A DNA stretch of 60,400 nucleotides from an uncultured Clostridia bacterium (GTDB taxonomy: Bacteria; Bacillota; Clostridia; Oscillospirales; Ruminococcaceae). The position numbers and the translations under genes were made by a program. Shown one piece after another: positions 43,582-60,328 of this stretch. The DNA lies in contig CANQPL010000015.1 of assembly GCA_947625735.1 (NCBI GenBank), forward strand, positions 1 to 60,400. Reading direction: 5' to 3'. The notes beneath the pieces were generated by a model. That model ran no database searches, was not told the origin of the DNA, and saw nothing but the letters and a program-made list of their open reading frames with translations. Position 1 is the first letter of the stretch, and each line of letters starts with the position of its first letter.

Positions 43582-43650
43582 ACCATTATCCCCATTTAAA
43601 TAGATCAGGTTAAACAGCATAATCATAAATAATTTGCTGTACTGCCGGAA

Positions 43651-46122
43651 TCATTTTACATACTCACCATACACATCATCTTCTACACTGTATCTATCAT
43701 CATTAACATATAATTCAACACCTGTAACATATAAAGTAAAAGGCTCAGGATCATATTCAGCTTCAAAGAATAATTTTACATCAATGTTTGGATTATCAAG
43801 ATTTTCTATCACAAAATCCGTTTCAAAATATTTGCTATCTAATCCCCATTTACTTACAAAACCTTTGAATGTTTCGCCGCCAAGATAATATGTACTTTGA
43901 TCACTATTAGATAAGCTGTGTAAATATTTTTCTGTTCCGATTGCAATATCTTTAGCATATTCATCTAATTGAGCCTTAGATAATTGTATTTTTGACATTT
44001 GTGCAACATTGTACTGCGCCTTTTGAGCAATTACATAATTTGATTCAAGTGTAGCTACAGTATCACCATCCTCATAGTATAATTGATTTGAATTAAGTGG
44101 TTCAGTAGAATTATATAAAAGTTTGCCATCAGCACCCATTACAATGTTATCCATAAATACTGCTACGATTGCCGTTCCCGTTGAATAATAAGAGTTACAG
44201 TGAGCATCATAACTTACCTCATATATGCGAATATATTTATTGTAAATTTTATCTTCATCTAACGTACTTGATTGTTTGTAAGACAAAAAATACTCTCTTA
44301 CAACTTGTTGGTTATTTATTTTATCTAAATTACGATTTTGATGTACCCAATTACATTGATCATCAAACCATGGAGAATCGCAAACACTTCTTTTAAATAA
44401 ACTACTGCTATTTACTCCTTTATTTGCTTCCGCCTCAACAAAATCGTCCATAAGTTGATTCAACTCTGAAATATCAACGCCGTCAAGAGTATCAAGATAA
44501 TAGCTGACATTATCAACAACATACTCCTGTGTAGATTTTGAAAAGTTTATATTATTATCTATAGCTGCGCTTTCGTCCCATTTTGCCTCAACTGTTACGC
44601 CGTCGCCCTTACTCAAGGGTTCATCAGTAATTGAAAAAGAAACATATTTCCTCACCTCATCACTGCAACCTGATGTGTTTACCGAAGCCTTTAAATATGG
44701 AGAAGCTCCGTCGTATTCGATCACTAATCCGTCAAAAGGATTTATAGTCTTGCTGTAATCATCACTTTTTTCGATAACATTTTGTGTAGCATTATATTCG
44801 TAATTTTCATCGCTTAATATTACATTATGTTTATCTGAAACAACACTCAGGTTAGGATATGAACCAACAATGGGATCGCCGTTGCATTCTATTTTATCCG
44901 GTAATGAATCCAGATCGACATTATTAAAAATATTATTACGACACCAACATGATTTCACAGGAACACCATTCTCTATTTTAACGCACGCATATCCGCCGTT
45001 GGGCATACCCATAAGGTTAGATAATGCTTTTGGCAATTCCAAACCATTTTTCTCATATGAATCAGCTTGATTGTTCAAATCTGCAATATACCAGTTATCA
45101 TCAACTGTATTTCCCTTAACTTCACACTGAGAAATATATGTAGCTGCGTTTGTATACGCAAGTTTAGCATTTGAATTAGCTGTTGCCATTAACGCATTAA
45201 GCTGTTCTTCCGTATATGTTTTGTTCTCTGCTTCCGATTTATCTGTATCAATTTCGTTTATAGCATTATCTATTTCTTTTTCAAATATTTTGACAAGATT
45301 ATTATATATTTTTTTATCTGCGTCTATGGAAAATATATCAGATTCTGTGGCAATGCTTGATGATAGGCTTGTTTCCTGAGCAACACGGACTGAAACGGTA
45401 TTACTGTAATAAAATGAACCCGGATATACTCCGATCAATTTTTTCCCATTCTGCAATTCTTCCATATCCCAATTGTAATAAGTTTCTAAATTATCTTCGT
45501 CATTTATTTGCTTTTTTTCACTGGACCAATAAACACATATAGGCGCTCCAAATTCGTTGATATTTACGTTATAATACCCATTCCGCGCCTCAATGTTTAT
45601 ATATTTATTGATAAAAAGATTCATATCACTGTTTTTTCCATTATACTTGACTTCTTTATTAGACACAGTGTTAGAAATTTTATTGATATGTGTCCCAGAC
45701 TTAACCATACTATCATTTAAGGCACATTCATTGCAATATTGTTTAATAGCATAATATATTGAGGCTGCATTTGCATTTGCCACGCTAATATCATACATAA
45801 TGATAATATCTTCAAAAGTTGCGTTGTTAAGTGCTGAAATCTCAAATGTATTATCTGTTGCAATTGAATAGATAAGATTAACAGCTCTTATTCCACTTAT
45901 AAAATCACTTTCATCAGATTCTAATGCTTCAAGAAAATGATTGCATTGTATCTCATACAATGCCTGCCTTGACGATTTTGAGAAAGAATTGTAGTCAATC
46001 TGCTCATCATCAAATATTTTGGTTATTGAATTGCTCGCTTCTATGTCGATCAAACTGCACCCTGAACATAATATCAAAATGCACATTATAAGCCCTAAAA
46101 GTTTATAGCGATTCTTGATCAT
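43651..46122 (-). CDS. Large lipoprotein with duplicated pilin-like segments
   Basis: 823 residues. Lipoprotein signal KLLGLIMCILILCSGCS (lipobox, Cys22). Two segments look related: NANAASIYYAIKQYCNEC ending GAPICVYWS, and NSNAKLAYTNAATYISQC ending GVPVKSCW. Both recall the globular part of type IV pilins (Ala-rich helix, Cys, then xVxV-aromatic strand). The rest is beta-rich and of unknown fold. It lies 64 bp after the DUF2085 gene and 70 bp before the giant adhesin gene, in the same direction. Likely a surface partner of the neighbouring adhesin. Confidence 0.65.
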   Translation of the reverse strand: MIKNRYKLLGLIMCILILCSGCSLIDIEASNSITKIFDDEQIDYNSFSKSSRQALYEIQCNHFLEALESDESDFISGIRAVNLIYSIATDNTFEISALNNATFEDIIIMYDISVANANAASIYYAIKQYCNECALNDSMVKSGTHINKISNTVSNKEVKYNGKNSDMNLFINKYINIEARNGYYNVNINEFGAPICVYWSSEKKQINDEDNLETYYNWDMEELQNGKKLIGVYPGSFYYSNTVSVRVAQETSLSSSIATESDIFSIDADKKIYNNLVKIFEKEIDNAINEIDTDKSEAENKTYTEEQLNALMATANSNAKLAYTNAATYISQCEVKGNTVDDNWYIADLNNQADSYEKNGLELPKALSNLMGMPNGGYACVKIENGVPVKSCWCRNNIFNNVDLDSLPDKIECNGDPIVGSYPNLSVVSDKHNVILSDENYEYNATQNVIEKSDDYSKTINPFDGLVIEYDGASPYLKASVNTSGCSDEVRKYVSFSITDEPLSKGDGVTVEAKWDESAAIDNNINFSKSTQEYVVDNVSYYLDTLDGVDISELNQLMDDFVEAEANKGVNSSSLFKRSVCDSPWFDDQCNWVHQNRNLDKINNQQVVREYFLSYKQSSTLDEDKIYNKYIRIYEVSYDAHCNSYYSTGTAIVAVFMDNIVMGADGKLLYNSTEPLNSNQLYYEDGDTVATLESNYVIAQKAQYNVAQMSKIQLSKAQLDEYAKDIAIGTEKYLHSLSNSDQSTYYLGGETFKGFVSKWGLDSKYFETDFVIENLDNPNIDVKLFFEAEYDPEPFTLYVTGVELYVNDDRYSVEDDVYGEYVK

Positions 46123-46186
46123 AATATATCACAACCTTTCAGAATAATTTAATGCCATTGAAATGTATTGTGCCATTCCTTTGTTA

Positions 46187-46540
46187 TTAAAATAACGCAA
46201 GTATAGCATATAATATTGCATTAAATTCACAAGTTATAATTCCAAAACCGCCAATTGTCCCTGTGAGCAATCGCCGCATATTTGTTGATTTTAAAATGCC
46301 AACATATTGTACAAACCAATCAATGAACATAGTCGCACAACATAGTATGCTAAGACGAAAATCAAATAGGAAAAATGGTATTACAACTATTGCTAATAGA
46401 TAACCTATAACCACTCCCGTACACCTTGCACAAAGCGGAAATTGGCTTTTTTTATAGAAAAAACTCCTGTCGGCTCGTTGATGACAGCCTGTTTTTGCAC
46501 CTAACTTCATCAATTTGAGCCACATATCGTTATTATTCAT
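46187..46540 (-). CDS. DUF2085 membrane protein
   Basis: 117 residues. The N-terminal TGCHQRADRSFFYKKSQFPL followed by CARCTGVVIGY is the DUF2085 signature (CHQR...CARCTG, probable metal-binding cysteines). Three TM helices follow. The family is widespread in Firmicutes with no settled function. Here it is embedded 11 nt after a zinc-ribbon protein gene in the island operon, so it may take part in folding or export of the surface proteins. Confidence 0.85.
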   Translation of the reverse strand: MNNNDMWLKLMKLGAKTGCHQRADRSFFYKKSQFPLCARCTGVVIGYLLAIVVIPFFLFDFRLSILCCATMFIDWFVQYVGILKSTNMRRLLTGTIGGFGIITCEFNAILYAILALF

Positions 46541-46551
46541 AAAGTCACCTG

Positions 46552-47691
46552 TTAAATTATATTTGTGGAAATCAAATGCTCTTTAGCTTCTTTAATGCGC
46601 TTGAGCTTTTGGTTAATTTCAGCAGATTCCTTGCAATCTGCTGCTGATTGCTTATATATTTTACTTGCATATTTATCTTCCATTTTAGGCTTGATAAGTA
46701 TAGCAACACCAATCAATACAATGCCGATAATACCTGTTATAATAGCAGGGATTACATTGTCATTAAATGCAACAAGGAATATAACCGTTAATACAAGCAA
46801 CAAAAATGCCGCTATTGCTGAAATAAGAGCATACATCTTTAAAGGCTTGTTTTCCGAATATTCTTTCTTCAAGATAGCTTTGTGATTTTTTTTGATATTG
46901 TTCATCTCGTCACATGATGCTGAATAAAGTCTATCAATATTATCAACAATCTCATCGGCGGTGTCGGAAATAAGTTTGCTGTCCCGTTTGATTTTTTCCT
47001 TTTCACTATTTCCCGCATTTGTCTGAAATTTATTTCCGCAGTTACCGCATATCCAGTATTCTACTGTGTTTACTTTATTAGCGCCAAAGCTACCGCATAA
47101 AAGACCAATGGGTCCCAGAATCATGTAACCGCAGCAAGCGTCACTTCCATTAAATCCTCTTTTTTCTGTATTTGCTACAAAACTTAGATTATCTGAGCCG
47201 CATTTCGGACATTTCATTTTTTCCAGTCCGGAATACGCTGCGATTTTTTCCTTATATTTTATAGAAGTCTTGTTGAAATCGGGTCTGATCGTAACTCTAC
47301 TATGTAATGACGGTACGTCAATTACTCTGTCCTCTTTCTTAATTTCAATTTTACGTGTATTTTTCTTATTGATTGGAGAAACAGGTTTATTTTCTTCAAT
47401 CTTTATTTCCCTAAAGGTGCTTGGCTGAGATTTGATTGGCGTCAAATTGACATTTGCTTCTCTTGGAGGATTTACATTATTTACTGCTATGTTCTCCTTG
47501 GACACAGGTATTGCTTTTTTCTCTTGTATTTCTCTTGGCGGTTCTTTGATAATAACTTCGCTGTCACTATTATCCAGATCGTTTATGATTTTAAAACCGT
47601 AAGGTATTTCTGATTCAAATGGTTCACCGCAGTATCTGCATTTTTCTGCTTTGTCGGTATTGATTTTATTGCATTTTTCACATAGCTTCAT
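46552..47691 (-). CDS. Double zinc-ribbon, two-TM membrane protein
   Basis: About 379 residues from ATG 47691 (GGAGG upstream; 11 codons of upstream frame are discarded). N-terminal zinc ribbon LCEKCN...CRYCGEPF (Cys4, 7, 18, 21), a disordered Pro/Lys-rich linker, a second ribbon (MKCPKCGSDNLSF...YWICGNCGNKF) split by a Gly/Cys-rich hydrophobic insert (CCGYMILGPIGLLCGSFG), and two TM helices near residues 275-330. A cytosolic coiled tail ends it. The zinc-ribbon N-terminus resembles those of two other membrane proteins in this operon. Confidence 0.7.
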   Translation of the reverse strand: MKLCEKCNKINTDKAEKCRYCGEPFESEIPYGFKIINDLDNSDSEVIIKEPPREIQEKKAIPVSKENIAVNNVNPPREANVNLTPIKSQPSTFREIKIEENKPVSPINKKNTRKIEIKKEDRVIDVPSLHSRVTIRPDFNKTSIKYKEKIAAYSGLEKMKCPKCGSDNLSFVANTEKRGFNGSDACCGYMILGPIGLLCGSFGANKVNTVEYWICGNCGNKFQTNAGNSEKEKIKRDSKLISDTADEIVDNIDRLYSASCDEMNNIKKNHKAILKKEYSENKPLKMYALISAIAAFLLLVLTVIFLVAFNDNVIPAIITGIIGIVLIGVAILIKPKMEDKYASKIYKQSAADCKESAEINQKLKRIKEAKEHLISTNII

Positions 47692-47724
47692 TTTTGTTCC
47701 TCCGATCTGAATTAACAATGACAA

Positions 47725-49449
47725 TCAGTCACCCTTATATGTAAATTCAGTTTCTTTAAACATATCATAAAACCAACTATCATCGTAATAAGCTGTGGTT
47801 GTTACACTAAAATATTCTTCCAGCGTTATTATCTTAACCTTAGTACGATATACTTGACTCGTATCTGATTTCAATGTAGCAGTAATCGTTACTTCACCTA
47901 CGCTATAGGTACTAAATGTTGAACCTCTTGGAGTAAATCGTAATTTTCTTGTATTGTCTGATTCCCATATATAGTCGCTCCATTCGGTATTTTCAAGCGG
48001 CAAAACTGAATTACGCAAATCAAATGTTGTACTAACAGGCAGAATCAACGAACTTTCGTTATATTCTTCTTCTGTTTGCTGAGTTGGTATTTCAGACGGA
48101 ATAACAACTTCTTCAATAATCAAAACATCGTTGACAGTTACCTTGCAAGATTTATAGTTGCTTGGTTCATCATCAAAATATATTTTTATTGTAGCAGTAC
48201 CTGCATTATCTGCATATACTCTTAATTCTCTTGTATTGCCACTCCACGATCCTTCCCATGAAATTTTCGCAACATTGTCATCGCTTGAAATTGCACTGAT
48301 ATTGTGTGAACCGGTTGCCGTAACTGTAATATATTTTCTATCTCCTAATTCAAGGTTCAAGCTGTGTGTATTTATGGATAGACTTAATATCGGTGTTGTA
48401 GGAATTTGAGGAGTAGTAGTGGTAGGAGTAGTAGTGGTAGGAGTAGTAGTGATCGGAGCGGTAGTAGTGATAGGAGCAGTAGTAGTCGTTATTTTTTCAT
48501 GTGAGCTCACATAAATTGTTAAAACAGTATTTTCAGTTATTGTACTGCCCGATTTATGGCTTTGTTTAAAAACGACGTCCTTGTCAACACGGCTGTCATC
48601 TTCATAAACAATTTTATATGTAATTCCTAATCGGTTAAGCTCTGATGTTGCTTCTGACACTCTTTTATAAATCAAGTACGGTACAGAAATGCTTTTTAGA
48701 GTTGTAGTTTCCGGTAATATTGTTGTTTCTTCATGATTGCTTACATATAGAGTAAGCAATGTATTTTCTGAGATCATTGTTCCAGATTTATGGCTTTGCT
48801 TAAAAATGCAGTTTTTGTCTACTCGATTATCATCTTCATATTCAACTTTAAATGAAATACCCAACTGATTTAATTCGGAAACGGCGTCTGGCAGACTTTT
48901 GTAAAGCAAAGAGGGGACTTCTATTGTATTGACTGTGACAGCTTCTGTATAGGTTGAGGTATCTGTTTTGGTTTCCGGAACAGATGTAGTAGTATTATTG
49001 TCCGATTTTTCATAGGTAATAGCATTATTTTGCAAAGATACATTTGATGTGGTAATACTATTATTATTGTTTAATGCACCATAATTTATATTGCTCAATT
49101 TCATATTAACCACTATCAAAATGATTATCACGACTATGGGAATAACAACACCTATCCCTATGAACAAAGCTGCATGAGATTTTTCCTTTTCATTATCATA
49201 ATCGCTGATAGACCTGTCCGGTTCATAGCTTCTTGTATCCTTAAAAACAGGCTCTTTCTGATCTTTTAAATTGCTCTGATTATTATTTGACTTTTTTAAT
49301 CCTGACGAACTTGTAAACTGAACATCATTGACCTTTGTAGCAACATGATCCGCAGTATGCGGTTTCGGTTCACCGCATATGATACATTTATCGCCTGAAT
49401 TAAGCGTTTCACATTCAGGACAACGCCACAATAAAGCATTATTACTCAT
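47725..49449 (-). CDS. Zinc-ribbon / TM / double-PASTA / Ig-like receptor
   Basis: 574 residues. Cytosolic zinc ribbon LLWRCPECETLNSGDKCIIC (Cys10, 13, 22, 25), disordered linker, TM helix (about 93-116), then outside the cell two PASTA domains (about 177-238 and 254-316; VPSLLYKSLPDAVSELNQLG and the near copy). A Thr/Pro linker encoded by a DNA tandem repeat (48411-48486) and a BIG2/Ig-like region (ITVTATGSHNISAISSDDN) follow. In PknB/Stk1 kinases PASTA is fused to the kinase. Here it is a separate receptor next to a soluble kinase, implying a split receptor-kinase. Confidence 0.85.
   Translation of the reverse strand: MSNNALLWRCPECETLNSGDKCIICGEPKPHTADHVATKVNDVQFTSSSGLKKSNNNQSNLKDQKEPVFKDTRSYEPDRSISDYDNEKEKSHAALFIGIGVVIPIVVIIILIVVNMKLSNINYGALNNNNSITTSNVSLQNNAITYEKSDNNTTTSVPETKTDTSTYTEAVTVNTIEVPSLLYKSLPDAVSELNQLGISFKVEYEDDNRVDKNCIFKQSHKSGTMISENTLLTLYVSNHEETTILPETTTLKSISVPYLIYKRVSEATSELNRLGITYKIVYEDDSRVDKDVVFKQSHKSGSTITENTVLTIYVSSHEKITTTTAPITTTAPITTTPTTTTPTTTTPQIPTTPILSLSINTHSLNLELGDRKYITVTATGSHNISAISSDDNVAKISWEGSWSGNTRELRVYADNAGTATIKIYFDDEPSNYKSCKVTVNDVLIIEEVVIPSEIPTQQTEEEYNESSLILPVSTTFDLRNSVLPLENTEWSDYIWESDNTRKLRFTPRGSTFSTYSVGEVTITATLKSDTSQVYRTKVKIITLEEYFSVTTTAYYDDSWFYDMFKETEFTYKGD
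48411..48486 (-). repeat. 15-bp tandem repeat encoding Thr/Pro linker
   Basis: Units related to GGTAGGAGTAGTAGT (48421-48435, 48436-48450, then diverged copies) encode the PITTT/PTTTT linker between PASTA and Ig-like domains. The unit length is a multiple of three, so copy-number slippage would change linker length without breaking the frame. Confidence 0.75.
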
Positions 49450-49471
49450 AGCATAATCTCCTAAAATCTAA

Positions 49472-50458
49472 TTACAAATCTCCTGCCGGATAAAATCCGT
49501 AATTTTCCTCCGTGGTACTCTGTGTAGGTTCTGTATTTATTTTGAGCCATGTAATCGGTACACTTTCTGCCTTTTCTTCGATCTTTTCATCATTACCCTC
49601 AATAGAATTCAGCATACTGAAAACATTACTCAAATTGGGCCTTTGCTGCGGGTCACAAACAAGCATTGCCTCGATGATCTCTGCATAAGCAGTAGGAATA
49701 CTTTCATCGCATTTTAATACAGCACCGTCAAGAACTGCTTCAAAAGCGTAATCATATGAACTGTCAAATGCTGGAAGCTGACCTGTAAAATATTGGTGAA
49801 ACAACAGTCCCAAAGCAAAAACATCAATCTTTCGATCAATTTCATCTATTTTCTCTGCCATATATAAAAATGATTCGGGAGCAAAGTACACCATATCTCC
49901 GTGAAAATCACTGTCCGGATCGGGCAGCATATTTTCAAAAAAACTTGCGTCAAAATCAATCAGTTTAGCAATAAATTTACCTTTAGGCGTTTTCTTGTAC
50001 ATTATATTGTCATGCTTAATATCGCCATGAACAATGCCGTGCATATGTAAAGTATTAACACAATGAGTTATAATTTTACAAATTAAATGTTTCTGCTCGA
50101 TAGGCATTTCAGCTATCTCTGAAACACTGATCGGCAAAGCGTCAATTTTCTCCGTAACAATATAATACTTGGCTCTGAATCTGAAAAAATCCGTTATATT
50201 TACGATATTTCCCGTATTACACCTATTCAGAGCATTATACAGCTTGGTTTTCTCATAAACGTATTTATCACATATATTCAAACGGGATTTTACTACTTCC
50301 GGCGATAGTACATCTTTTTCAAAAGGATAGACAGGACTTAAAAATTCCTTTATAAATACCTCTGTACCGTCTTTTCGTGCAAATCCCCAACGTGAAAACC
50401 CACTGTTGTCATTTCTGAACTCGCCTATAAGAACATATCCGTTTATATTATCATTCAT
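49472..50458 (-). CDS. Soluble Ser/Thr protein kinase with island-specific C-terminal tail
   Basis: About 328 residues from ATG 50458 (GGAAGG 9 nt upstream). Hanks-type kinase: ATP-binding Lys37 in EVFIKEF, catalytic loop GIVHGDIKHDNIMY (Asp146, Asn151; HGD instead of HRD), metal-binding Asp168 in LIDFDAS (DFD rather than DFG), and YFAPESF. Catalytic residues are present. No TM or PASTA. The last ~30 residues (ITWLKINTEPTQST then TEENYGFYPAGDL) match the tail of the next upstream protein. It lies between PASTA-receptor and phosphatase genes, as in TerY-P-type triads. Confidence 0.9.
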   Translation of the reverse strand: MNDNINGYVLIGEFRNDNSGFSRWGFARKDGTEVFIKEFLSPVYPFEKDVLSPEVVKSRLNICDKYVYEKTKLYNALNRCNTGNIVNITDFFRFRAKYYIVTEKIDALPISVSEIAEMPIEQKHLICKIITHCVNTLHMHGIVHGDIKHDNIMYKKTPKGKFIAKLIDFDASFFENMLPDPDSDFHGDMVYFAPESFLYMAEKIDEIDRKIDVFALGLLFHQYFTGQLPAFDSSYDYAFEAVLDGAVLKCDESIPTAYAEIIEAMLVCDPQQRPNLSNVFSMLNSIEGNDEKIEEKAESVPITWLKINTEPTQSTTEENYGFYPAGDL

Positions 50459-50476
50459 ATTACTCAACCTTCCGAA

Positions 50477-51121
50477 TTACAAATCATCACCCGGAGTGAA
50501 AAATCCACTGTTAAATTCTTCAGTTGAATCGGTTTTATCATTCAATTTTATTGTAACTTCCGATACTGCTGATCCGATAACTGTCGATTTCCCCATCGTT
50601 GATTTTAATTTTACGCCTGTCGAGGGTGCTTTTGTTTCTGTAGGCTTTACTTTTGCAACTTTGACTGTTGCAGTTCTATCATAAATTGGTTCTTTATTAT
50701 ATACAGCTACATTATGACTTAAATATGTTTCTGAATTATCAACTGACTCTGTTTCCTCCTGTTCAGCCGAATAGTCGTATTCCACTGTTGTAGTTGATAT
50801 TGGCGTCTTATAAACATCTGTTTTCTCGTCAAGATTATTGGTAATGAATGCTTTTTCCTTTTTATTATAATCAATAGAAATGCCTATACCTGCTATTCCT
50901 GATATAACTATTGCTGCTAAAAGGAATATAAATGTTCCCGTGATTTTCAGCGTTACAGTTGCTCCCAAATCTTCAAGCCTGGATTTCTCCATAAGGCAGT
51001 CAATAACAGTATAAGCTGAAATAATTATACCAACAATAAATAGGATAATGAAAACTATTTTCATTATAAACATAGCAAGGTTGTTTTTTTTGAATTTTCT
51101 TTTAAGTGCTTGCTCTGTCAT
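50477..51121 (-). CDS. Two-TM protein with Ser/Thr-rich cytosolic tail, likely kinase partner
   Basis: 214 residues. TM helices at about 16-38 and 58-81 put both ends in the cytosol. The tail (about 90-214) is rich in Ser/Thr (TATVKVAKVKPTETKAPSTG, KLKSTMGKSTVIGSAVS) and ends DSTEEFNSGFFTPGDDL, clearly similar to the kinase end STTEENYGFYPAGDL. I recognise no family. A membrane docking platform or substrate for the kinase and phosphatase is the simplest reading. It lies 18 nt after the PP2C gene and 18 nt before the kinase start. Confidence 0.7.
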   Translation of the reverse strand: MTEQALKRKFKKNNLAMFIMKIVFIILFIVGIIISAYTVIDCLMEKSRLEDLGATVTLKITGTFIFLLAAIVISGIAGIGISIDYNKKEKAFITNNLDEKTDVYKTPISTTTVEYDYSAEQEETESVDNSETYLSHNVAVYNKEPIYDRTATVKVAKVKPTETKAPSTGVKLKSTMGKSTVIGSAVSEVTIKLNDKTDSTEEFNSGFFTPGDDL

Positions 51122-51138
51122 AATTCAACCCGCCTTTC

Positions 51139-52113
51139 TTATTTTTCTGATTTCTGATAACGATAATAATCCTTTTGATAATCCTGCCACAAAGATATTT
51201 TTGCGGCAGAATCGCTGTTTTCTAATGCTCTTATGTACTTTGATTCAACATATTCAATTCTGTTGCGGAAATATTTTTTTACTTCTTCAAAATCGTTATA
51301 TCCAAATAACGCCATGCACATAGTATGATCATCTCCCGAAATTTCTTTCAGAAGTGTTTTTAGATTATTTTCCCACTGATTGACATTATTTGAACGAAAC
51401 AGCGATTCAAGCAGCATATATTCAAATTGCATTGGAGTTGAGATATAGCCAAAGCAACCGTCTGTAGCTGTAAAAACAATACATGGCATTGAAAAAGTAT
51501 TTTGTACTGCATGAATCAAGTAATTTCCGTCTGACGATACTACATTTTTCAATACTCCGTCATCTGTAAGATTAGATAATGCGTCTGTGGAATCTAAATC
51601 ATCAACAGATATTTGTGCCAATCCTTTATTATCAAGCATATATACTCTTGAATCTCCTGCCCAAAGCGAAACAGTATTCAATTGACAATTTTTTACCGAC
51701 AAAAAAGCAGAAGCGATAGTTGTAGGGAATTTTCTTACCATTGATCCTTTTATCTTTATGGACGTTTCAGAATGTTTAGAAAAATAGCCTAATTCAGACT
51801 GTATGAACTCTTTTAATTCAGAATCAAATAGTATATTAGAAAACTTACCCTGTTCGCAAACATCATTAAACCATTTATTTAAAGCATAAGCTACAGCACG
51901 TGCGGCAATATATGCACCTGTTTTATTCTCGAATGAGGGATATTTAAGCGCTCCTAAGCCGCCGCAGCCGTCACAAACTGTTAGCATACCCGCAAATTCA
52001 TTGAATGAATAAAAATAACAATCTTCACCATTTTTGGGAATCATTTCACCGTTAATGGCTATAACAGTATCTAATAACTCTGTAATGCTTTTATCAGTAT
52101 GACTTTTTTTCAT
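51139..52113 (-). CDS. PP2C-type Ser/Thr phosphatase
   Basis: 324 residues. PPM/PP2C motifs: NGEDCYFYS, VCDGCGGLGALKYPS (DGxGG metal site), SLWAGDSRVYML, FTATDGCFGYIS and SGDDHTMCMALF. The metal-binding aspartates are present. Cytosolic. It sits between the vWA gene and the kinase module, so it probably reverses phosphorylation by the kinase. vWA, PP2C and kinase in one operon is the TerY-P triad arrangement described by comparative genomics. Confidence 0.9.
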   Translation of the reverse strand: MKKSHTDKSITELLDTVIAINGEMIPKNGEDCYFYSFNEFAGMLTVCDGCGGLGALKYPSFENKTGAYIAARAVAYALNKWFNDVCEQGKFSNILFDSELKEFIQSELGYFSKHSETSIKIKGSMVRKFPTTIASAFLSVKNCQLNTVSLWAGDSRVYMLDNKGLAQISVDDLDSTDALSNLTDDGVLKNVVSSDGNYLIHAVQNTFSMPCIVFTATDGCFGYISTPMQFEYMLLESLFRSNNVNQWENNLKTLLKEISGDDHTMCMALFGYNDFEEVKKYFRNRIEYVESKYIRALENSDSAAKISLWQDYQKDYYRYQKSEK

Positions 52114-52127
52114 ATCAGCTTACCAAC

Positions 52128-52814
52128 TCAAATGGAATTATAAATAGCATCAAGGATTTGACTGTAATCTACCTCTGACAAGCCTTCACCCGCTTCGGAC
52201 GGAAAATGAATAACATTATCCCAATTATTAGAAATAAAAGACCAGCCTGGTTCATCGGGTGTAAACAATAGCAATCGCTTTGCATTTTGATTCATAAAGC
52301 CTGGATTCTGACGATCTCCCCACCATGCAGTAAGCTCGCCCATATCTTTTGCCATATTTTTAGGATAGTTAGGCTCACCTTTGCCATATCCTAATTCATG
52401 TGTAGAAGCGTCCGACCATACAACTATTACCTGTCTTTTTTTCATGCCTTCTTCCGACCACTTTGACTTAATTGCATAAGCAAGTGCCTCTAATCCGTCC
52501 TCAGGATCATCACCGCCGCCTTTTGCCGAAAGGCTTCTCACACATTTTTCAAAATCATCAGCTTGTTCGGGCAGATTGAAAAAATTAGTAACCAGCATAG
52601 CAGCGTTTCCGTCTGCAACATAATCTCTGAATGCTACCACTCTCACACGGAGCTGGCTGATTGTCTTCCCTTTGCGGATCATACCGGCGCATACATCATT
52701 GTAAAAATTCAAAGCATTAGTTTTTACAATATCAATGATGTTATGCATACTTCCTGTTGCGTCGATCACGAATACAAGATCAACAGTATAAGTAATTTTG
52801 TAGTTGCTTCCCAT
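52128..52814 (-). CDS. von Willebrand factor A domain protein (TerY-like)
   Basis: About 228 residues from ATG 52814 (AGGAGG upstream; 13 upstream codons rejected). YTVDLVFVIDATGSMHN gives the MIDAS start (D-x-T-G-S), with further MIDAS parts VVAFRDYVAD and VVWSDASTHELG. No signal peptide, so an intracellular vWA like TerY, probably a metal-dependent scaffold for the kinase and phosphatase. In tight series with the phosphatase gene (15 nt). Confidence 0.88.
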   Translation of the reverse strand: MGSNYKITYTVDLVFVIDATGSMHNIIDIVKTNALNFYNDVCAGMIRKGKTISQLRVRVVAFRDYVADGNAAMLVTNFFNLPEQADDFEKCVRSLSAKGGGDDPEDGLEALAYAIKSKWSEEGMKKRQVIVVWSDASTHELGYGKGEPNYPKNMAKDMGELTAWWGDRQNPGFMNQNAKRLLLFTPDEPGWSFISNNWDNVIHFPSEAGEGLSEVDYSQILDAIYNSI

Positions 52815-52871
52815 AATAAAATTCCTCCTAAAGATAAAAAATACTATTTGCAATCTTAGTTATTACTCTAC

Positions 52872-53984
52872 TTATGTTACCATATCCATGATAATAGTAA
52901 TTGTTACGCCTGTGTCAGTATCTCCAGATATAATTAATGTATTATCATCGGGTACTTTGTCAATTTTTATTTTTCCTTCCTCATCAGTAAGTTGATAATC
53001 CGGTATTTTTATATAGCCTTCAGGTGGTTCTTCCATACGAATTGTATATGTTCCCATAGGAATGGTCAAACTATTATTTTCGTCACCAGATTTCCATGCA
53101 GCAACTTCGTCACCATTTTTGTCAAGTATTTGAATAGTAACATTTTTAATCTCTGTTTCGTTACTATCCTGCACAATGAAGTCAATATTCCATTTTTTAA
53201 GTATGAAATCATTTTCTTTTGGTTTATTAATAATAGTGATTGTTGTAATACCATTGTTTATATCCATTGTTATTGTATCATCATCAAAATCAATGTTTCC
53301 GTCATCATCTACCCTAAAGCCTGTATCTGAGATTGCCAAATAGAAATCATGCTCTTGTTCGTGTAGAGTGTACATTCCCGGAGCAATGGTTAAACTTTCT
53401 ATCTCTTCATCAGATTTCCACTCCTTAACTATCTCATTGTTTTCATTTAAAATTTGAATAGCTGCTCCTTTAATTTCTGTACCGTTTATATCCTGCACAC
53501 TGAATTTTAAGTTATAAACAGCAGGCTCATTGACTTCATTTTTGTCAGGAGCTGTTGAATAGTTTTCGAGTATCTCATCATTTGTATCATTACTATTGAT
53601 TGTTGTGTCATTCTTTTCGGTAATATCATAGTCTACATCATCAGTTGATATTGTGCTTTTTAATGAAAAACTTATCAACATACCAACGAGAATTATAATT
53701 ACCAAAATCAATACAGATATAACAACTTGTTGCTTTTTGTATTTTAATTGTATTTCATCTATGTTTAATGCTATGGTAGGTGTATTTATTGTGTTATTAG
53801 CAATAGAAACATCTTTAGACGTTTCTGAATAAATTACATTTGGTTTACTGATTTCGTTAGGAAAATTTTCAGGTACACCGCTATCTGTTAATATTGAAAG
53901 TGCGTTATTGCAATATTCACATCTTGTTGAACCTAATTTATTTTTCTTACCACACCATTTGCAGAACACATTTTCCACTTCCAA
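52872..53984 (-). CDS. Zinc-ribbon / TM / prealbumin-like surface receptor, first gene of island operon
   Basis: Up to 370 residues. The first codon is a TTG at 53984, but a GTG at 53969 giving MFCKWCGKKN is also reasonable. Zinc ribbon with Cys8, 11, 22, 25, linker, TM helix (about 86-108), then two Cna_B/SpaA-like domains outside (NLKFSVQDINGTEIKGAAIQ and NIDFIVQDSNETEIKNVTIQ; each ends GMYTLHE or GTYTIRM). No consensus promoter lies between this gene and the inverted repeat at 54089. Its expression may therefore depend on inversion of the neighbouring recombinase segment. Confidence 0.75.
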   Translation of the reverse strand: MEVENVFCKWCGKKNKLGSTRCEYCNNALSILTDSGVPENFPNEISKPNVIYSETSKDVSIANNTINTPTIALNIDEIQLKYKKQQVVISVLILVIIILVGMLISFSLKSTISTDDVDYDITEKNDTTINSNDTNDEILENYSTAPDKNEVNEPAVYNLKFSVQDINGTEIKGAAIQILNENNEIVKEWKSDEEIESLTIAPGMYTLHEQEHDFYLAISDTGFRVDDDGNIDFDDDTITMDINNGITTITIINKPKENDFILKKWNIDFIVQDSNETEIKNVTIQILDKNGDEVAAWKSGDENNSLTIPMGTYTIRMEEPPEGYIKIPDYQLTDEEGKIKIDKVPDDNTLIISGDTDTGVTITIIMDMVT

Positions 53985-54088: not shown

Positions 54089-54114
54089 TTATCGTAGAGT
54101 ATAATCATCTAAGA
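54089..54114 (+). repeat. Left inverted repeat of cassette 1 (IRL1)
   Basis: 26 bp, beginning TTATCGTAGAGTATAATC and ending CTAAGA, perfect reverse complement of 55469-55494. Internally TCGTAGA and TCTAAGA form imperfect inverted arms around a 9-nt spacer, the layout of a tyrosine-recombinase crossover site. It lies 105 bp before the start of the island operon. Confidence 0.85.
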
Positions 54115-54117
54115 TAA

Positions 54118-54155
54118 AACGCCGCTAATCCCTTTAAAATCGGAATTTGCAGCGC
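54118..54155 (-). terminator. Probable terminator of recombinase 1
   Basis: On the minus strand CGCTGC ... GCGGCG arms enclose AATTCC/GGGATT-type inner pairing and are followed by TTTTATC. It lies just downstream of the recombinase stop, inside the cassette, so it would move with it on inversion. Confidence 0.45.
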
Positions 54156-54184
54156 TTTTTGACCATAATTCTGACGGCAGATAA

Positions 54185-55285
54185 TCAGAAAACATCACTC
54201 AATTTTTCCATATTGCTGCGTTTTAAGTCCATAGACGGGTGAACATAACGATTGAGCGTTATATTAACGTTTGTATGACCGAGAATCTCACTTAATGTTT
54301 TTACATCAAATCCTGCTTCAACGCAGCGAGTAGCAAATGTATGCCTGAGTGCATGAAAATTGACATTACTCAGACCGCATTCCTTAATATACTTTTTAAA
54401 ATGATATTCCAAAGTCCGAGGTTCAATAAATTTTTCGGCATTTCCCGTCAGCAAATAACATGACGGTTTCATGACAGAATAATACTTAAACAGTATTTCC
54501 GCTGCAAAATTCGGTATGGGAATATCCCTTAAAGAGCTTTTGCTTTTCGGTTCGGTGATTATAACCTCGGTTTTTGCACATTCGCTGTCGATCTGAACTC
54601 TCTGCATAGTTTTCCTTACCGACAGCATAGAATGAGGAAAGGAAATATCTTCTCTCTTTAATGCACACATCTCTCCGATACGGATTCCCGTACAAAGGCA
54701 CAGAAAAATTCCGATCTTATATAAATTGGGAGAATCAAGAAGATAATCCGTAAATAGCCGCTGCTCATCAACATTGAGAACACGCATTTGCCGCTTTTCC
54801 TGCCTTACCGATACAGACCGAAGAGTAAATGTTATGGTACAGCCGCTGTCAGCTGCAAATGTGAGTATCATTCTGATAACACACAAAATATCATTTTTGG
54901 TTTTGGAGGATAGTTCGGTATACTCACAAATAACCTGTTCCAATGATTTCGCATTTATCATTTCAATACGTTTATTTCCGAGGAGCGGCTTAATATAGCT
55001 GTTATACAGGTTACGATACTTGTTATAGGTGGATATTTTGCGTTTTAGTTTAACAGTAGTCAACCAGCCTTCGGCATAGAAACCCAAATTATCGTTGCTA
55101 TGCTTTTGCGATGTTTGTGCAATTAAAGCCTTCTTTTGCGTGATCATCTTTTCTTTTACCTCTGCATAGCTATGTGCATAGATCGATTTGTAGACCGCCC
55201 TTCCGTCAACATTATACGATTTTATATACCTCCCTTCCCAACGACCGTCCTTTCGTTTGTAAATATTTTCTCCTCTGCGCGGCAT
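54185..55285 (-). CDS. Tyrosine recombinase 1 (invertase-type integrase)
   Basis: 366 residues. N-terminal RRGENIYKRKDGRWEGRY arm-binding-like domain, SAM-like core-binding domain (about 65-165), and catalytic domain with Arg in TGIRIGEMCALK, HALRHTFATR (His/Arg) and LGHTNVNITLNRYVH (His and nucleophile Tyr). All catalytic residues are present. AGGAGG precedes the ATG. It is wholly contained between perfect inverted repeats and about 40-45% identical by eye to recombinase 2. Predicted action: inversion of its own cassette, switching the adjacent promoter. Confidence 0.92.
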   Translation of the reverse strand: MPRRGENIYKRKDGRWEGRYIKSYNVDGRAVYKSIYAHSYAEVKEKMITQKKALIAQTSQKHSNDNLGFYAEGWLTTVKLKRKISTYNKYRNLYNSYIKPLLGNKRIEMINAKSLEQVICEYTELSSKTKNDILCVIRMILTFAADSGCTITFTLRSVSVRQEKRQMRVLNVDEQRLFTDYLLDSPNLYKIGIFLCLCTGIRIGEMCALKREDISFPHSMLSVRKTMQRVQIDSECAKTEVIITEPKSKSSLRDIPIPNFAAEILFKYYSVMKPSCYLLTGNAEKFIEPRTLEYHFKKYIKECGLSNVNFHALRHTFATRCVEAGFDVKTLSEILGHTNVNITLNRYVHPSMDLKRSNMEKLSDVF

Positions 55286-55410
55286 GATACCCCTCCTGAC
55301 TTTGACTGAAAAATTGACGGCGAATAACTGGATACAACACCTTTTTTTACCTAAAATTACAATTTTGTGGATAAAATTCTATGTATTTCGCCATATTTCC
55401 TTGTGGACTA

Positions 55411-55440
55411 TTGACAATTATATTACATTTATTGTATAAT
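55411..55440 (+). promoter_or_regulatory. Outward promoter P1 of cassette 1
   Basis: Perfect TTGACA (55411-55416), 18-bp spacer, perfect TATAAT (55435-55440), pointing right. The start site would be near 55447, 22 bp before the right inverted repeat. In this orientation transcription meets a terminator at 55501-55531. After inversion it would read left into the kinase/phosphatase island. Confidence 0.8.
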
Positions 55441-55468
55441 ATAAAGGCAAATTGACGAAAAAATATTG

Positions 55469-55494
55469 TCTTAGATGATTATACTCTACGATAA
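55469..55494 (-). repeat. Right inverted repeat of cassette 1 (IRR1)
   Basis: 26 bp, TCTTAGATGATTATACTC continuing to CGATAA, exact reverse complement of IRL1. Beyond the 26 bp the flanks differ, so the repeats are discrete sites rather than the ends of a longer duplication. Confidence 0.85.
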
Positions 55495-55500
55495 AAATTG

Positions 55501-55531
55501 CTTCCGATTTCACCGATTCGGAAGTTTTTTT
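55501..55531 (+). terminator. Intrinsic terminator facing promoter P1
   Basis: CTTCCGA (55501-55507) pairs with TCGGAAG (55518-55524), followed by seven T residues. It lies 6 bp past the right inverted repeat and would stop P1 transcripts after about 80 nt. On the other strand the hairpin plus ATTTTT may also terminate the nuclease gene. Confidence 0.75.
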
Positions 55532-55557
55532 AATTTATTAAAGTATTAAATAAGCAT

Positions 55558-56577
55558 TTAAGGATCACATTTCCCGCAAGAGGAATACCCCTCGGCAATC
55601 AATTCCTCACGATCACCTATAAACTTCATTTTGTTTTTAACGCTCATCTGCTCCACACTTGGACAGCTCGGATAATGAAATTTCTTTGTATTGGTATTCA
55701 CTATGTATGTTATCTCCGAAAGAGTTGAGGTCTGAATCTCTGTAACCGTTGTTTCGGCTTGTGTAACTGTCACATTTTCATTAAATTCACTCTCGCCGTT
55801 TGCATAATTTATCGCTATATCGGGCTGAACGTTATAGCAGAATACATTGAAACATATTCCTGCTCCGCTGTCCTCTACGGAATACCCCTCCATGAGAACA
55901 CCGCTTGCCAACAGATCATCACCGTCAAACATAGGGGTTACACGATATAAAACATGATTACCTGTTTCATTCACATAATCGGCGGTCATATTTTCAAACG
56001 GCAGCATACCCTCGATATTGAGATACCGTGTACCCGTAATGAGATTTCTTTCGTTGGCATTTTCGCCGCTAAGCTGATAACCGATCAAGTGACATCTGTT
56101 ATACAGATACTTCCCGTCAACATTATCATACTTAACCGTGTGCCAGCCTGTAGGCTTAATGCTGCCTATGCTGCCGCGTTCCTCTATAGGCATTATATCT
56201 TTGCCAATACAAGCATAAGCGACGCCACATCTGCCCATATCGTCAAGGTCGGAATAGCTTTCAAATGATCTCTCTGTCAGATCGGATCGGCTGAAAAATG
56301 GTACATTATCATTTATAACCGCGTATGCCTCTCCGCTGTATGTTGGAATGTCTGATAATGATATATACTCAATTGCAGGGATAATTGCGGTTTCTGCCTC
56401 TGCCGTGATCTGATATGAAGTATCTTCCGTAATTGCTGTATCGGTTTCAATATCAGCAGCAGAAACAATTTCTATGCTTATAGGATAATCATGAGTTGGC
56501 TCGGTGCAGCCTGAAAAGGTGACAACTATTCCTGCACATAGCAGAAGTGCCGTTATGCTCTTAACTAACTCTCTCAT
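55558..56577 (-). CDS. Secreted DNA/RNA non-specific nuclease lipoprotein with C-terminal Ada-like metal-binding domain
   Basis: 339 residues. Lipoprotein signal LLLCAGIVVTFSGC (Cys24). Nuclease domain about 65-250, with GWHTVKYDNVDGKYLYNRCH and LIGYQLSGENANERNLITGT; NRCHLIG corresponds to the DRGH-type catalytic motif of Endonuclease_NS_2 enzymes. After a Thr-rich linker, TNTKKFHYPSCPSVEQM and YSSCGKCDP form the Ada-like cysteine motif common behind Firmicutes surface nucleases. It overlaps the upstream 136-residue gene. Likely degrades DNA outside the cell, for nutrition, competition or biofilm. Likely transcribed only when cassette 2 is inverted. Confidence 0.85.
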   Translation of the reverse strand: MRELVKSITALLLCAGIVVTFSGCTEPTHDYPISIEIVSAADIETDTAITEDTSYQITAEAETAIIPAIEYISLSDIPTYSGEAYAVINDNVPFFSRSDLTERSFESYSDLDDMGRCGVAYACIGKDIMPIEERGSIGSIKPTGWHTVKYDNVDGKYLYNRCHLIGYQLSGENANERNLITGTRYLNIEGMLPFENMTADYVNETGNHVLYRVTPMFDGDDLLASGVLMEGYSVEDSGAGICFNVFCYNVQPDIAINYANGESEFNENVTVTQAETTVTEIQTSTLSEITYIVNTNTKKFHYPSCPSVEQMSVKNKMKFIGDREELIAEGYSSCGKCDP

Positions 56578-56971
56578 AGATCACCTCTGTTATCCTGTCA
56601 TGAGAATATCCTTGAAAATCCTCTGTCCGAACGATCTTCCAGTTGTCAGACAACGATATTCCGAATTTCAAGTCGCTCGGATATTTCCTGTTCCATTTAT
56701 AAAGGATAATCCTGCTTACTTTGTCCTCATATGGTCTTATATCAACGTCCTCAACAAAGCAATAATCATCATCGAGGGCGTTTTCAAGAAAATAGCTGTC
56801 CGTTCTGATCTGAGGATAATCGCCGAACATTTCCCTTGAATATTCATTCATCAGAAGAGTACAGCCGCTTGTAATGTTCAGAATCCTCTCACGCAGCTTA
56901 ACGTCCTGCGATTGACGGCGATGATTGAACAGAATACCGCCGTTATCGTCGGTGCAAACTATCAATATCAT
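56561..56971 (-). CDS. Conserved-type hypothetical protein coupled to nuclease
   Basis: 136 residues: MILIVCTDDNGGILFNHRRQ, then LRERIL and LYKWNRKYPSDLKF, ending ITEVIYERVS. I recall similar proteins beside surface nuclease genes in Clostridia, sometimes annotated ribonuclease Z. No metallo-beta-lactamase HxHxDH motif is present, so that name is not supported. GGGAGG precedes the ATG and the stop overlaps the nuclease start. It is the first gene left of cassette 2, 76 bp from its inverted repeat. Confidence 0.6.
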   Translation of the reverse strand: MILIVCTDDNGGILFNHRRQSQDVKLRERILNITSGCTLLMNEYSREMFGDYPQIRTDSYFLENALDDDYCFVEDVDIRPYEDKVSRIILYKWNRKYPSDLKFGISLSDNWKIVRTEDFQGYSHDRITEVIYERVS

Positions 56972-57046: not shown

Positions 57047-57070
57047 TTTCGCAAAATTAACCGTTTTGCG
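57047..57070 (+). repeat. Left inverted repeat of cassette 2 (IRL2)
   Basis: 24 bp, TTTCGCAAAATTAACCG then TTTTGCG, exact reverse complement of 58442-58465. CGCAAAA/TTTTGCG arms around a 7-8 nt asymmetric spacer give the form of a recombinase core site, and the spacer fixes its orientation. Confidence 0.8.
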
Positions 57071-57141
57071 GAATTTCCTGCACAAATATGAAATTATCAA
57101 GGTTCGCCGAGGGAATATGACAAGAAAATTGACGTTTTAAA

Positions 57142-58239
57142 TCAAGCGGCAAAGCTATCAGAGAATAATTTCATGCAGGACTTTTTCCTCTCAATTGAGG
57201 AATGAACATACCTGTTAAGCGTAACCTGCACCGAGCTATGACCGAGTATCTCCGACAGAGTTTTAACATCAAATCCTAACGCTATACAGTTTGTAGCAAA
57301 CATATGACGAAGTGCATGGAAGTTTACATACGGCAGTTTTGCCTTTTTGAGAATGCTTTTAAAACGATACTGCATTGTGCGAGGTTCAACGATCTTACTG
57401 CTTCCGGACAGAAGAAAACAATCGTCAGCGGCTTTAATTTCACGCAGATATGGCACAATAAAATCGGGTAAGGGTATCTGACGGACAGAGCTTGCGCTTT
57501 TCGGAGAGGTTACGATCAGGCGCGTACCGCCGTCACTGTTGGAAATTCTCTGAACGGTCCGATTGACGGTCAGAATGCTTTTTTCTAAGTCAATATCCCG
57601 CCATTTCAAGGCACATAATTCTCCTATCCTTATACCCGTGGCTGCGGACAGAAGTATTCCAACATTGGAGCTGTTCGGATCATTCGCAAGAACAGATCGG
57701 AGCTGCGACTGATCCGCAGCCGACAACATCTTCATTTCAGGACATTTTTTTGACTTCGGCAGAGAAACGCACTCGATCCTGTTGACATAGCCGTAATTTC
57801 TTTGAGCAAAGATAGCAACGGATTTTAGCAGTACAACAATATCCGATATGTATTTTTCGGACAGGTTTTCGGAGATCTTCACGGATATAAATGCATTAAG
57901 GCTGTCAGCCGTCAGCTTGTCATACTTAATCCCCGAAAAATAGGGTAAAATATGTTTTTTCAACTTCATAGTGTAGTTTGCAAGAGTTGATTCCTTGACC
58001 TTGTTCTTTACGGCAACAAGCCATTTGTTTATGATCTCTCCGACCGTACATTTGCAGTGACGATCTGTATTGTCAATGAACTCCGCACGTTTTTTGTCAA
58101 GACGGTTCTTGACGGCTGAATAACTTTTTCCGTACACAGATGAATATTTAGCTTTGCCGTCTGCGGTATATCCGCTCTTATAGCGTCCCTCCCAGCGTCC
58201 GTCCTTTCTCTTATATATGTTTAATCCTCTTTTGGCCAT
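57142..58239 (-). CDS. Tyrosine recombinase 2 (invertase-type integrase)
   Basis: 365 residues. KRGLNIYKRKDGRWEGRYKS start, core-binding domain, and catalytic residues in TGIRIGELCALKW, HALRHMFATN and LGHSSVQVTLNRYVH. TTGGAGG precedes the ATG. Paralogue of recombinase 1 with the same N-terminal signature but different crossover sites, so the two switches are probably independent. Enclosed by 24-bp inverted repeats. Confidence 0.92.
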   Translation of the reverse strand: MAKRGLNIYKRKDGRWEGRYKSGYTADGKAKYSSVYGKSYSAVKNRLDKKRAEFIDNTDRHCKCTVGEIINKWLVAVKNKVKESTLANYTMKLKKHILPYFSGIKYDKLTADSLNAFISVKISENLSEKYISDIVVLLKSVAIFAQRNYGYVNRIECVSLPKSKKCPEMKMLSAADQSQLRSVLANDPNSSNVGILLSAATGIRIGELCALKWRDIDLEKSILTVNRTVQRISNSDGGTRLIVTSPKSASSVRQIPLPDFIVPYLREIKAADDCFLLSGSSKIVEPRTMQYRFKSILKKAKLPYVNFHALRHMFATNCIALGFDVKTLSEILGHSSVQVTLNRYVHSSIERKKSCMKLFSDSFAA

Positions 58240-58375
58240 AATAAATCCTCCAATTTGACAAGATTTTTGACGGTAAAAAAACCGTTTTCGGGTAATTTAC
58301 AAAAAAATATCAAGTAAAAAACGTCTTAACCGCAATTAAATGACCGCAGAACGGCATGAAAATGTCGATTTTTAC

Positions 58376-58404
58376 TTGACAAATGCGATAAAATAAGGTA
58401 TAAT
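58376..58404 (+). promoter_or_regulatory. Outward promoter P2 of cassette 2
   Basis: Perfect TTGACA (58376-58381), 17-bp spacer, perfect TATAAT (58399-58404), pointing right into the inverted repeat and the 3' end of parB. After inversion the same promoter would start near 57101 and read left into the genes at 56971 and 56577. Confidence 0.8.
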
Positions 58405-58434
58405 TAACTTAATTTAACGCATAGAAACAAAAAA

Positions 58435-58469
58435 GCCCTTTCGCAAAACGGTTAATTTTGCGAAAGGGC
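58435..58469 (-). terminator. Hairpin overlapping IRR2; terminator for parB
   Basis: GCCCTTTCGCAAAA (58435-58448) pairs with TTTTGCGAAAGGGC (58456-58469). On the minus strand it is followed by TTTTTTG, a good intrinsic terminator for the parAB transcript. The recombination site is built into this hairpin. Confidence 0.7.
58442..58465 (-). repeat. Right inverted repeat of cassette 2 (IRR2)
   Basis: 24 bp, CGCAAAACGGTTAATTTT then GCGAAA, exact reverse complement of IRL2. The flanking bases differ from those of IRL2. Confidence 0.8.
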
Positions 58470-58471
58470 AA

Positions 58472-58508
58472 AAATCGGCGGTACTGTTTGTCACAATACC
58501 GCCGATTT
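58472..58508. terminator. Second hairpin downstream of parB
   Basis: AAATCGGCGGTA (58472-58483) pairs with TACCGCCGATTT (58497-58508). A decayed version occurs at 35414-35438, where it again precedes the near-palindrome and a stop codon. Confidence 0.6.
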
Positions 58509-60311: not shown

Positions 60312-60328
60312 AGCTTTGCATAAAGTGG
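60299..60328. repeat. 30-bp perfect palindrome at parA break
   Basis: CCACTTTATGCAAAG followed directly by its reverse complement, centre AGCT at 60313/60314. It begins exactly where ParA homology stops. To its right (60329-60400) I see only AT-rich DNA with a repeated TTATGTAAAG (twice) and no gene. Confidence 0.85.

Follow-up and report, generated by a model that had tools for sequence, protein, structure and literature searches.

We analyzed a 60,400-nucleotide (nt) stretch of contig CANQPL010000015.1 (assembly GCA_947625735.1) from an uncultured Clostridia bacterium of the Ruminococcaceae, hereafter the window, and focused on positions 54089 to 55494. We think it likely that this segment is an invertible promoter with a tyrosine recombinase gene of its own and that, when it flips, the operon to its left is switched on. 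The segment is 1.4 kb long and holds one tyrosine recombinase gene and an outward promoter-like site between mirror-image repeats (Table 1), and comparison of related loci indicates that inversion has taken place in this cassette family. For the cassette itself, we infer the inversion, the switching and the action of the recombinase on the two repeats, whereas promoter activity, terminator function and arm binding are predictions from its sequence.

Architecture of the cassette

A sequence-only reading of this DNA had described perfect 26-bp inverted repeats, and they are indeed identical over 26/26 nt (97% if extended to 29 nt). With up to 3 mismatches, a 25-nt part of the repeat occurred at these two sites alone in the window (shuffled sequences gave 0) and at no third site in the 3.0-Mb genome assembly; the exact repeat had no match in viral contigs. 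Only three places in the window have exact inverted pairs of 20-mers at most 5 kb apart: the cassette studied here, a second one (57047/58446), and a hairpin close to where the contig ends. The recombinase frame is intact and carries a Phage_integrase domain (PF00589, 4e-25), as expected from the earlier description of a single enclosed tyrosine recombinase gene.

The promoter noted at the same time was recovered as a 12/12 match, the best among 22 promoter-like sites in a scan in which shuffled sequences averaged 20.6 sites; it stands out by its quality and position, not by the number of such sites. Past the right repeat, the hairpin at 55500-55525 folds at -10.7 kcal/mol (z -3.9; -8.4 on the opposite strand) and is followed by TTTTTTT, in agreement with the terminator that had been placed there, and the same structure lies beyond the end of a nuclease gene. 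A pattern scan found no terminator in the cassette region because its loop limit was 8. The promoter scan gave no minus-strand site of 9/12 or better from the left repeat to the operon start at 53984, again as reported before, and we infer that the island has no other promoter. The arithmetic of the proposed inversion is also right: the -10 box would move to 54143-54148 and face the operon start.

Table 1. Positions of the two cassettes, their predicted sites and their predicted target operons in the window
Feature	Position	Strand	Basis
Left inverted repeat	54089..54114	+	repeat search
Right inverted repeat, exact reverse complement of left	55469..55494	-	repeat search
Proposed 10-nt half-sites round 7-nt spacer (TATAATC)	54090-54099 and 54107-54116 (inner); spacer 54100-54106		left repeat
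Outward promoter-like site TTGACA-18-TATAAT (12/12), divergent from recombinase	55411..55440	+	promoter scan
Hairpin (-20.9 kcal/mol), then short T-run	54116..54158	-	folding
Terminator-like hairpin plus T-run, met by outward promoter in drawn state	55500..55532	.	folding
Tyrosine recombinase, 366 aa; predicted arm-binding fold, core-binding and catalytic domains	54185..55285	-
Arm-type motif GCCGTCA-N8-GTCA just before recombinase start	55303..55321	-
Arm-type motif GCCGTCA-N8-GTCA just after recombinase stop	54160..54178	-
Predicted target operon, ten genes, gaps 0-64 nt	39319..53984	-	ORFs, Pfam
Left repeat, second cassette	57047..57073	+
Right repeat, second cassette; perfect fit to core pattern	58439..58465	-
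Second tyrosine recombinase, 365 aa, 42% identical to first	57142..58239	-
Outward promoter-like site TTGACA-17-TATAAT, second cassette	58376..58404	+
Arm-type motif before second recombinase start	58256..58274	-
Arm-type motif after second recombinase stop	57118..57136	-
Predicted target, second cassette: 136-aa protein and DNA/RNA non-specific endonuclease	55558..56971	-

Related cassettes in other genomes

A profile of six recombinases matched 270 of the 396 genomes of the taxonomic family at 1e-30, with mostly five candidates scored per genome. We then scanned for flanking repeats the loci returned by our searches together with 80 regions from the top of the profile match list; from that range we excluded seven matches, which were fragments, frames with stops, or an edge copy. 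Enclosing inverted repeats with a score of at least 17 were present at 101/165 related recombinase open reading frames (ORFs), a score that only 7/999 mismatched flank pairs reached. Among the 149 ORFs with enough flank, the repeat-enclosed fraction followed the model score, being, from the highest scores to the lowest, 16/16, 59/75, 23/31, 2/9, and 0/18. All 100 recombinases with repeats in a 152-member tree grouped within one clade of 135 (support 0.98); the 20 members outside the best-fitting clade were all without repeats. The cassettes measure 1.1 to 1.8 kb, and their repeats are mostly perfect. An outward promoter of at least 11/12 was found in 56/101 cassettes versus a mean of 0.6 (maximum, 2) in shuffled sequences, and an inward one was found in 2/101.

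Copies flanked by repeats also occur on plasmid and faecal phage-labelled records, for example from Vescimonas, Enterococcus raffinosus, and E. faecalis. On Enterococcus megaplasmids (L051/L053), recombinase relatives precede a WxL operon in E. gilvus, where no strong repeat was found, and a secA2 and secY2 operon in E. raffinosus, where the repeat is 18 nt long. In IMG/VR, at least 79 loci matched, and 7 of the 16 tested for repeats reached a score of 17. A scan of genome contigs gave only five relatives. The contig of a recombinase 61% identical to ours (G013:C65) breaks off inside the gene, so that repeats are not visible; its neighboring genes had no DNA match to the window. A full-length congeneric cassette (L267 1460-5555, G008:C59) encodes a recombinase 51% identical to ours next to a different operon, which includes a protein with a P-loop-like start (MLGARRAGKTS). 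Another cassette (L088, G157:C48) has an inverted repeat of 181 nt, 178 of them identical, that enters long open frames on either side; it looks as though this cassette chose between two target genes.

Orientation of related cassettes

Comparison of similar cassettes indicates that inversion has taken place in this family, since in two pairs of loci the cassettes are inverted relative to matching flanks and the turning points fall at the repeats. In the first pair, from two genomes (L082 and L083), the cassettes match on the same strand at 89.8%, and one flank has a 1345-nt match of 92.6% on the opposite strand; on its other side, L082 has just 135 nt of flank, with no match to L083. In the second pair, from two contigs of one genome (L125 and L136), the cassettes are 83.1% identical on the same strand, and both flanks match on the opposite strand (91.9% over 923 nt and 81.2% over 706 nt), the second after a 39-nt match at the repeat and about 200 unaligned nt. 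L062 and L063 showed the same inverted pattern with flank matches of only 33 and 72 nt. L108 versus L141, and L059 and L081 versus L086, also look inverted, but as their DNA identity is just 65 to 67% they lend weak support. We did not count L181 and L180 versus L055 and L056 as inversions: L181 lacks the left repeat, and L180 is cut by a contig end. At the protein level (at least 55% identity and 120 bits), flank genes lay on the same side in 29 locus pairs and on opposite sides in 18, the pairs not being independent. Together with the repeats at 101/165 loci and the outward promoters, these opposite orientations support the earlier proposal that inversion turns the promoter toward the operon.

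Judged by flanking genes, 43 cassettes are drawn OFF and 13 ON; gene starts lie on both sides of another 27 and on neither side of 18. A terminator-like hairpin lay within 200 nt on the promoter side in 25/41 OFF cassettes (41 tested of 43) and on the other side in 7/41. Contigs ended 23 to 175 nt outside the 3' repeat in 7/93 cassettes (L080, L131, L138, L144, L082, L124, and L145) and further out in 6. These ends are possibly assembly forks from mixed orientations; they are no clean sign of them, since on the 5' side 0/15 ends fell within 200 nt of a repeat.

We agree with the sequence-only reading that the window shows the OFF state. In the opposite view, the drawn orientation would be the productive one: the leftward recombinase transcript would read through the left repeat and co-express the island, and flipping would separate the two. 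The recombinase is directed at the operon start when drawn, a layout shared by 43/56 clearly classified cassettes. However, the hairpin at 54116-54158 (z -4.4) and its short T-run stand between the recombinase stop and the left repeat and likely end the recombinase transcript there, and inward promoters of at least 11/12 are rare (2/101). A hairpin after the recombinase is not a family feature (15/93 regions pass the cut), so read-through is weaker as an explanation here than for many other cassettes. We regard it as unlikely for this cassette.

Recombinase and its putative binding sites

The recombinase belongs to the tyrosine class and not to the serine recombinases of the Hin-type invertase class. 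R202, K247, H311, R314, H337, and Y347, which we take to be the catalytic residues, are invariant across the six recombinases of the genome's own complete cassettes. The NCBIfam models for tyrosine-type DNA invertases, NF007370 and NF007371, did not match the protein at an E value of 0.001, and a sister recombinase scored 20 bits against their cut-offs of 221 and 222. By sequence and by fold, the top match in the PDB was Tn1549 Int, and the core-binding and catalytic domains are nearest to Tn916/Tn1549 Int among solved structures. The N terminus is predicted to form three strands and a helix (E8-10, E16-24, E30-37, and H40-62; the mean predicted local distance difference test score of the model is 85.7), and three strands plus one helix is the arm-binding fold described for the IntTn916 subgroup (PMC8138268). 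The structure comparison covers mainly residues 61 to 366, with the N-terminal domain barely covered in the VIA-align list, so the assignment of an arm-binding domain rests on the predicted model. The protein resembles the IntTn916-type arm-binding integrases.

Candidate arm sites accompany the domain. We searched the sense strand beside the recombinase start and stop for GTCA-N7-9-GTCA and found it in the 101 cassettes 41 times before the start, 32 times after the stop, and 19 times at both, versus shuffle means of 0.4, 0.2, and 0; none was found on the opposite strand. A looser form of the motif on either side was present in 52/76 cassettes whose recombinase has the N-terminal domain and in 4/25 without it (Fisher p 5e-6, uncorrected for relatedness). 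The repeats themselves may consist of palindromic half-sites round a short spacer: with 10-nt half-sites, a spacer of 7 performed best, giving at least 8/10 matches in 56/101 cassettes (5 in shuffles). Spacers of 5 and 9 share its centre and nearly equal its score (50 and 45 cassettes), and the exact length of 7 therefore stays a proposal. Among the 82 cassettes with at least 7/10 half-site matches, 75 distinct 7-nt spacers occurred.

From these features we propose the following mechanism. The recombinase would bind the half-sites round the spacer in each repeat (the core), and its N-terminal domain would bind the GTCA-N8-GTCA motifs beside the start and stop codons (the arms). It would then pair the two repeats and exchange strands within the spacer, whereby the 1.4-kb segment would invert. 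With the cassette as drawn, transcription from the promoter would run into the terminator (OFF), and recombinase transcripts would halt at the hairpin at 54116-54158; after inversion, the relocated -10 box would face left and drive the operon of ten genes (ON). The nuclease operon would be controlled in the same manner by the second cassette, and recombination between cassettes of one genome would be prevented by their differing spacers. The sequence-only reading had missed the second cassette, along with the arm-type motifs and the hairpin that follows the recombinase stop (54116-54158).

Cassettes in the same genome

Searching the genome itself with the recombinase gave 15 matches, among them six complete cassettes, two of which stand in tandem in the window. 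The single switch described earlier is not the only one. The six have repeats of 19 to 45 nt, all of different sequence, and an outward promoter site of 11 or 12 of 12. Each is drawn OFF, with the promoter pointing away from the gene start beside the other repeat. The second cassette (57047-58465) has 27-nt repeats with 96% identity. Its promoter faces a hairpin at 58472-58508 past the parB gene, and inversion would bring the -10 box to 57108-57113, facing the operon of the 136-aa protein and the endonuclease, the latter with a lipoprotein-like leader (by eye). The two cassettes have separate predicted target operons, with the hairpin at 55500-55532 between them. By eye, the other four targets are presumably a LytTR-like response regulator, a secreted protein, a Sel1-like repeat protein, and a Wzz-like polysaccharide protein.

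A core-pattern scan of the genome gave 20 forward matches versus 9 in a reversed control, and its rows with three mismatches are for this reason no evidence alone. The scan recovered a 342-bp inverton without a recombinase (C61:5272-5613; L259 local 2273-2614), with repeats matching at 22/23, a 12/12 promoter (TTGACA-17-TATAAT), and, by eye, arm motifs at both ends; it sits between a surface-protein-like gene and an apparent rplU gene. It is perhaps a deletion derivative and, if still flipping, would need a recombinase in trans. Two further cores lay at contig edges, in C8 (L260 1-291) and C60 (L261 1-28). In C8, TTGAAA-17-TATGAT (by eye) is directed through the core at a gene and would be the ON state of a further, cut-off cassette.

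One could also suppose that another integrase acts on the repeats in trans and that the gene between them is dispensable or noncognate. In favor of this view, the 342-bp inverton keeps repeats, arm motifs, and promoter without a recombinase, and any flipping of it would depend on trans action. Clostridia invertons have likewise been linked to an invertase within 5 kb (PMC11892184). Against this view, nearly each cassette has a private spacer (75 distinct among 82), and the repeat of the cassette at 54089 was found nowhere else in the genome assembly, which suggests that gene and sites are paired in cis. We consider recombination of this cassette by another integrase very unlikely.

The proposal of a self-encoded switch also has to be set against several observations that weigh on the other side. 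The 101 repeat-enclosed cassettes are not independent, some being near copies, and 64/165 recombinase ORFs did not reach a repeat score of 17. Of 29 repeat-less loci with a model score of at least 300, 13 have less than 500 nt of contig on one side and 16 do not; because these 16 have at least 500 nt on each side, some relatives of the recombinase seem to lack repeats. The best-fitting clade of the tree, with 132 tips, includes 32 without repeats, and L181, having lost its left repeat, would be fixed. The hairpin pattern is weak for ON cassettes (5/13 on the promoter side and 7/13 on the other), and six of six OFF cassettes in one genome would be unusual if both states were equally common. A spacer of 7 is only slightly better than 5 or 9 with the same centre, and the half-sites of the cassette at 54089 pair at 7/10 as a palindrome, compared with 8 to 10 in the five sister copies. 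Lastly, the island kinase had no match in 19 other congeneric genomes, being found in its own genome only among 20; there is consequently no orthologous island locus for comparison.

Portability of the cassettes

We next considered whether the cassette could be a small mobile element or its remnant, that is, a Tn916-type integrase with terminal inverted repeats, a fixed orientation, and an incidental promoter. The enzyme is of the integrase type, and the copy without a left repeat (L181) exists. From the cassette pairs we took the 19 with the highest similarity (at least 78% over more than 900 nt). In 12 of them a flank is shared in the same orientation, in 4 the flank matches are inverted, and in 3 nothing is shared beyond 39 nt outside the repeats. 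Between L083 and L095, in the same genome, homology (92.6%) runs exactly from repeat to repeat, with more than 1.2 kb of flank available on each side; between L082 and L095 (86.7%) it stops within 3 nt of the repeats, one L082 flank being short; and between L125 and L132 (90.5%) it stops within 39 nt. Because homology ends at or so near the repeats in these three comparisons, the cassettes may be portable, or the surrounding DNA may have been exchanged. On the other hand, the 12/19 pairs with flanks in the same orientation indicate that most similar copies stay put. The repeats are inverted, and a tyrosine recombinase acting on inverted sites produces inversion and not excision. Related loci show inversion at the repeats, and the outward promoter is conserved far above shuffled sequences. 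We therefore hold a mobile element of fixed orientation to be quite unlikely.

The two ideas are compatible, and the invertible promoter could possibly be a portable switch. More tentatively, and with more doubt than conviction, we suggest that the cassettes are a mobile class of their own: self-inverting promoters of about 1.4 kb, the size of insertion sequences, with an arm-binding Tn916-type integrase, that would spread to unrelated operons as private ON/OFF switches. The 7-nt spacer would be the address that separates the switches, derivatives without a recombinase (342 bp, C61) would flip in trans, and conjugative elements would phase-vary their cargo.

Relation to known systems

Invertible promoters and recombinases encoded inside the segment are known already, from Hin and, as reported, from Providencia stuartii. 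In the Hin/fljBA system of Salmonella, a serine recombinase inverts an outward promoter and thereby switches the neighboring operon, an arrangement that our cassette would share apart from the enzyme. In contrast to Hin, the enzyme here is a tyrosine recombinase with a predicted arm-binding domain, the sites are palindromic cores with arm-type motifs, and there are several cassettes per genome, each with a private spacer. The fim-type enzymes FimB and FimE and RecV of Clostridioides difficile are tyrosine recombinases that invert a promoter or leader segment between short inverted repeats, as ours presumably does, but they are encoded outside the segment and are not known to have an arm-binding domain, whereas our recombinase gene lies inside and the domain is predicted. 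The well-studied C. difficile switches likewise have their recombinase encoded away from the segment. The fim-type likeness drawn by the sequence-only reading is consequently imprecise, as it holds for the class of the enzyme but not for its IntTn916-like kind or its place inside the segment; with the enzyme encoded inside, the arrangement comes nearer to that of Hin, albeit with a tyrosine recombinase. The IntTn916 subgroup (Tn916 and Tn1549) moves conjugative elements, while the gene studied here is flanked by inverted and not direct sites and shares its 1.4-kb segment with a promoter, on a contig with conjugation-type genes.

According to PMC5903667, the recombinase of Hin/fljBA is likewise inside its segment, one RecV serves several sites in C. 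difficile, and a putative 844-bp fimbrial invertible segment of P. stuartii with 14-bp imperfect repeats encloses a recombinase ORF. Like our cassettes, the P. stuartii segment encloses the recombinase and adjoins a surface-structure operon; unlike that one fimbrial locus, ours measure 1.1 to 1.8 kb, have longer and mostly perfect repeats, and precede many unrelated target operons. PMC11892184 links Clostridia inverton group 139 to a tyrosine-type recombinase/integrase (invertase group 35), with proximity defined as intersecting or within 5 kb; two of its group-139 examples enclose about 206 and 228 bp, another layout. As the arm-binding domain is tied to mobility in PMC8138268, its presence in a switch is unexpected. 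In the open-license literature, we found no report of arm-binding, self-enclosed, multicopy cassettes. If our interpretation is true, gene control in these bacteria would have a layer that has been missed: a family with its own integrase inside the segment, with several independent copies in a genome and members in many genomes. The cassettes give testable predictions regarding orientation, spacer exchange, and arm sites and could serve as independent promoter switches. The predicted targets here include a signaling operon, with genes for vWA, phosphatase-like, and kinase proteins, as well as a nuclease and surface proteins, on an element that is likely conjugative.

Target operon and contig context

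The predicted target operon of the first cassette encodes a SpaA-domain protein, a vWA protein, a weak PP2C-type phosphatase match (22 bits versus a cut-off of 230), a protein without a Pfam match, a Ser/Thr kinase, a PASTA protein, a zinc-ribbon-like protein, a DUF2085 protein, a large protein without a Pfam match, and a C-type-lectin/leucine-rich-repeat protein. In PADLOC, the kinase resembles several defence kinases. We nevertheless refrain from classing the island as a defence system, as this match (best, mad6, 2e-24, partial) had no convincing partner among the eight proteins tested.

The contig is likely part of a conjugative element, either a conjugative plasmid or an integrative element, since it also encodes ParA, ParB, VirD4-like, and VirB4-like proteins. 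At positions 1 to 39000 of the window, the VirB4-like and VirD4-like proteins are accompanied by a topoisomerase, two cytosine methylases, a GGDEF protein, and a subtilase, all encoded on the minus strand. At 60299-60328, not far from where the contig ends, a perfect hairpin overlaps the start of the ParA frame, which may be cut or rearranged there.

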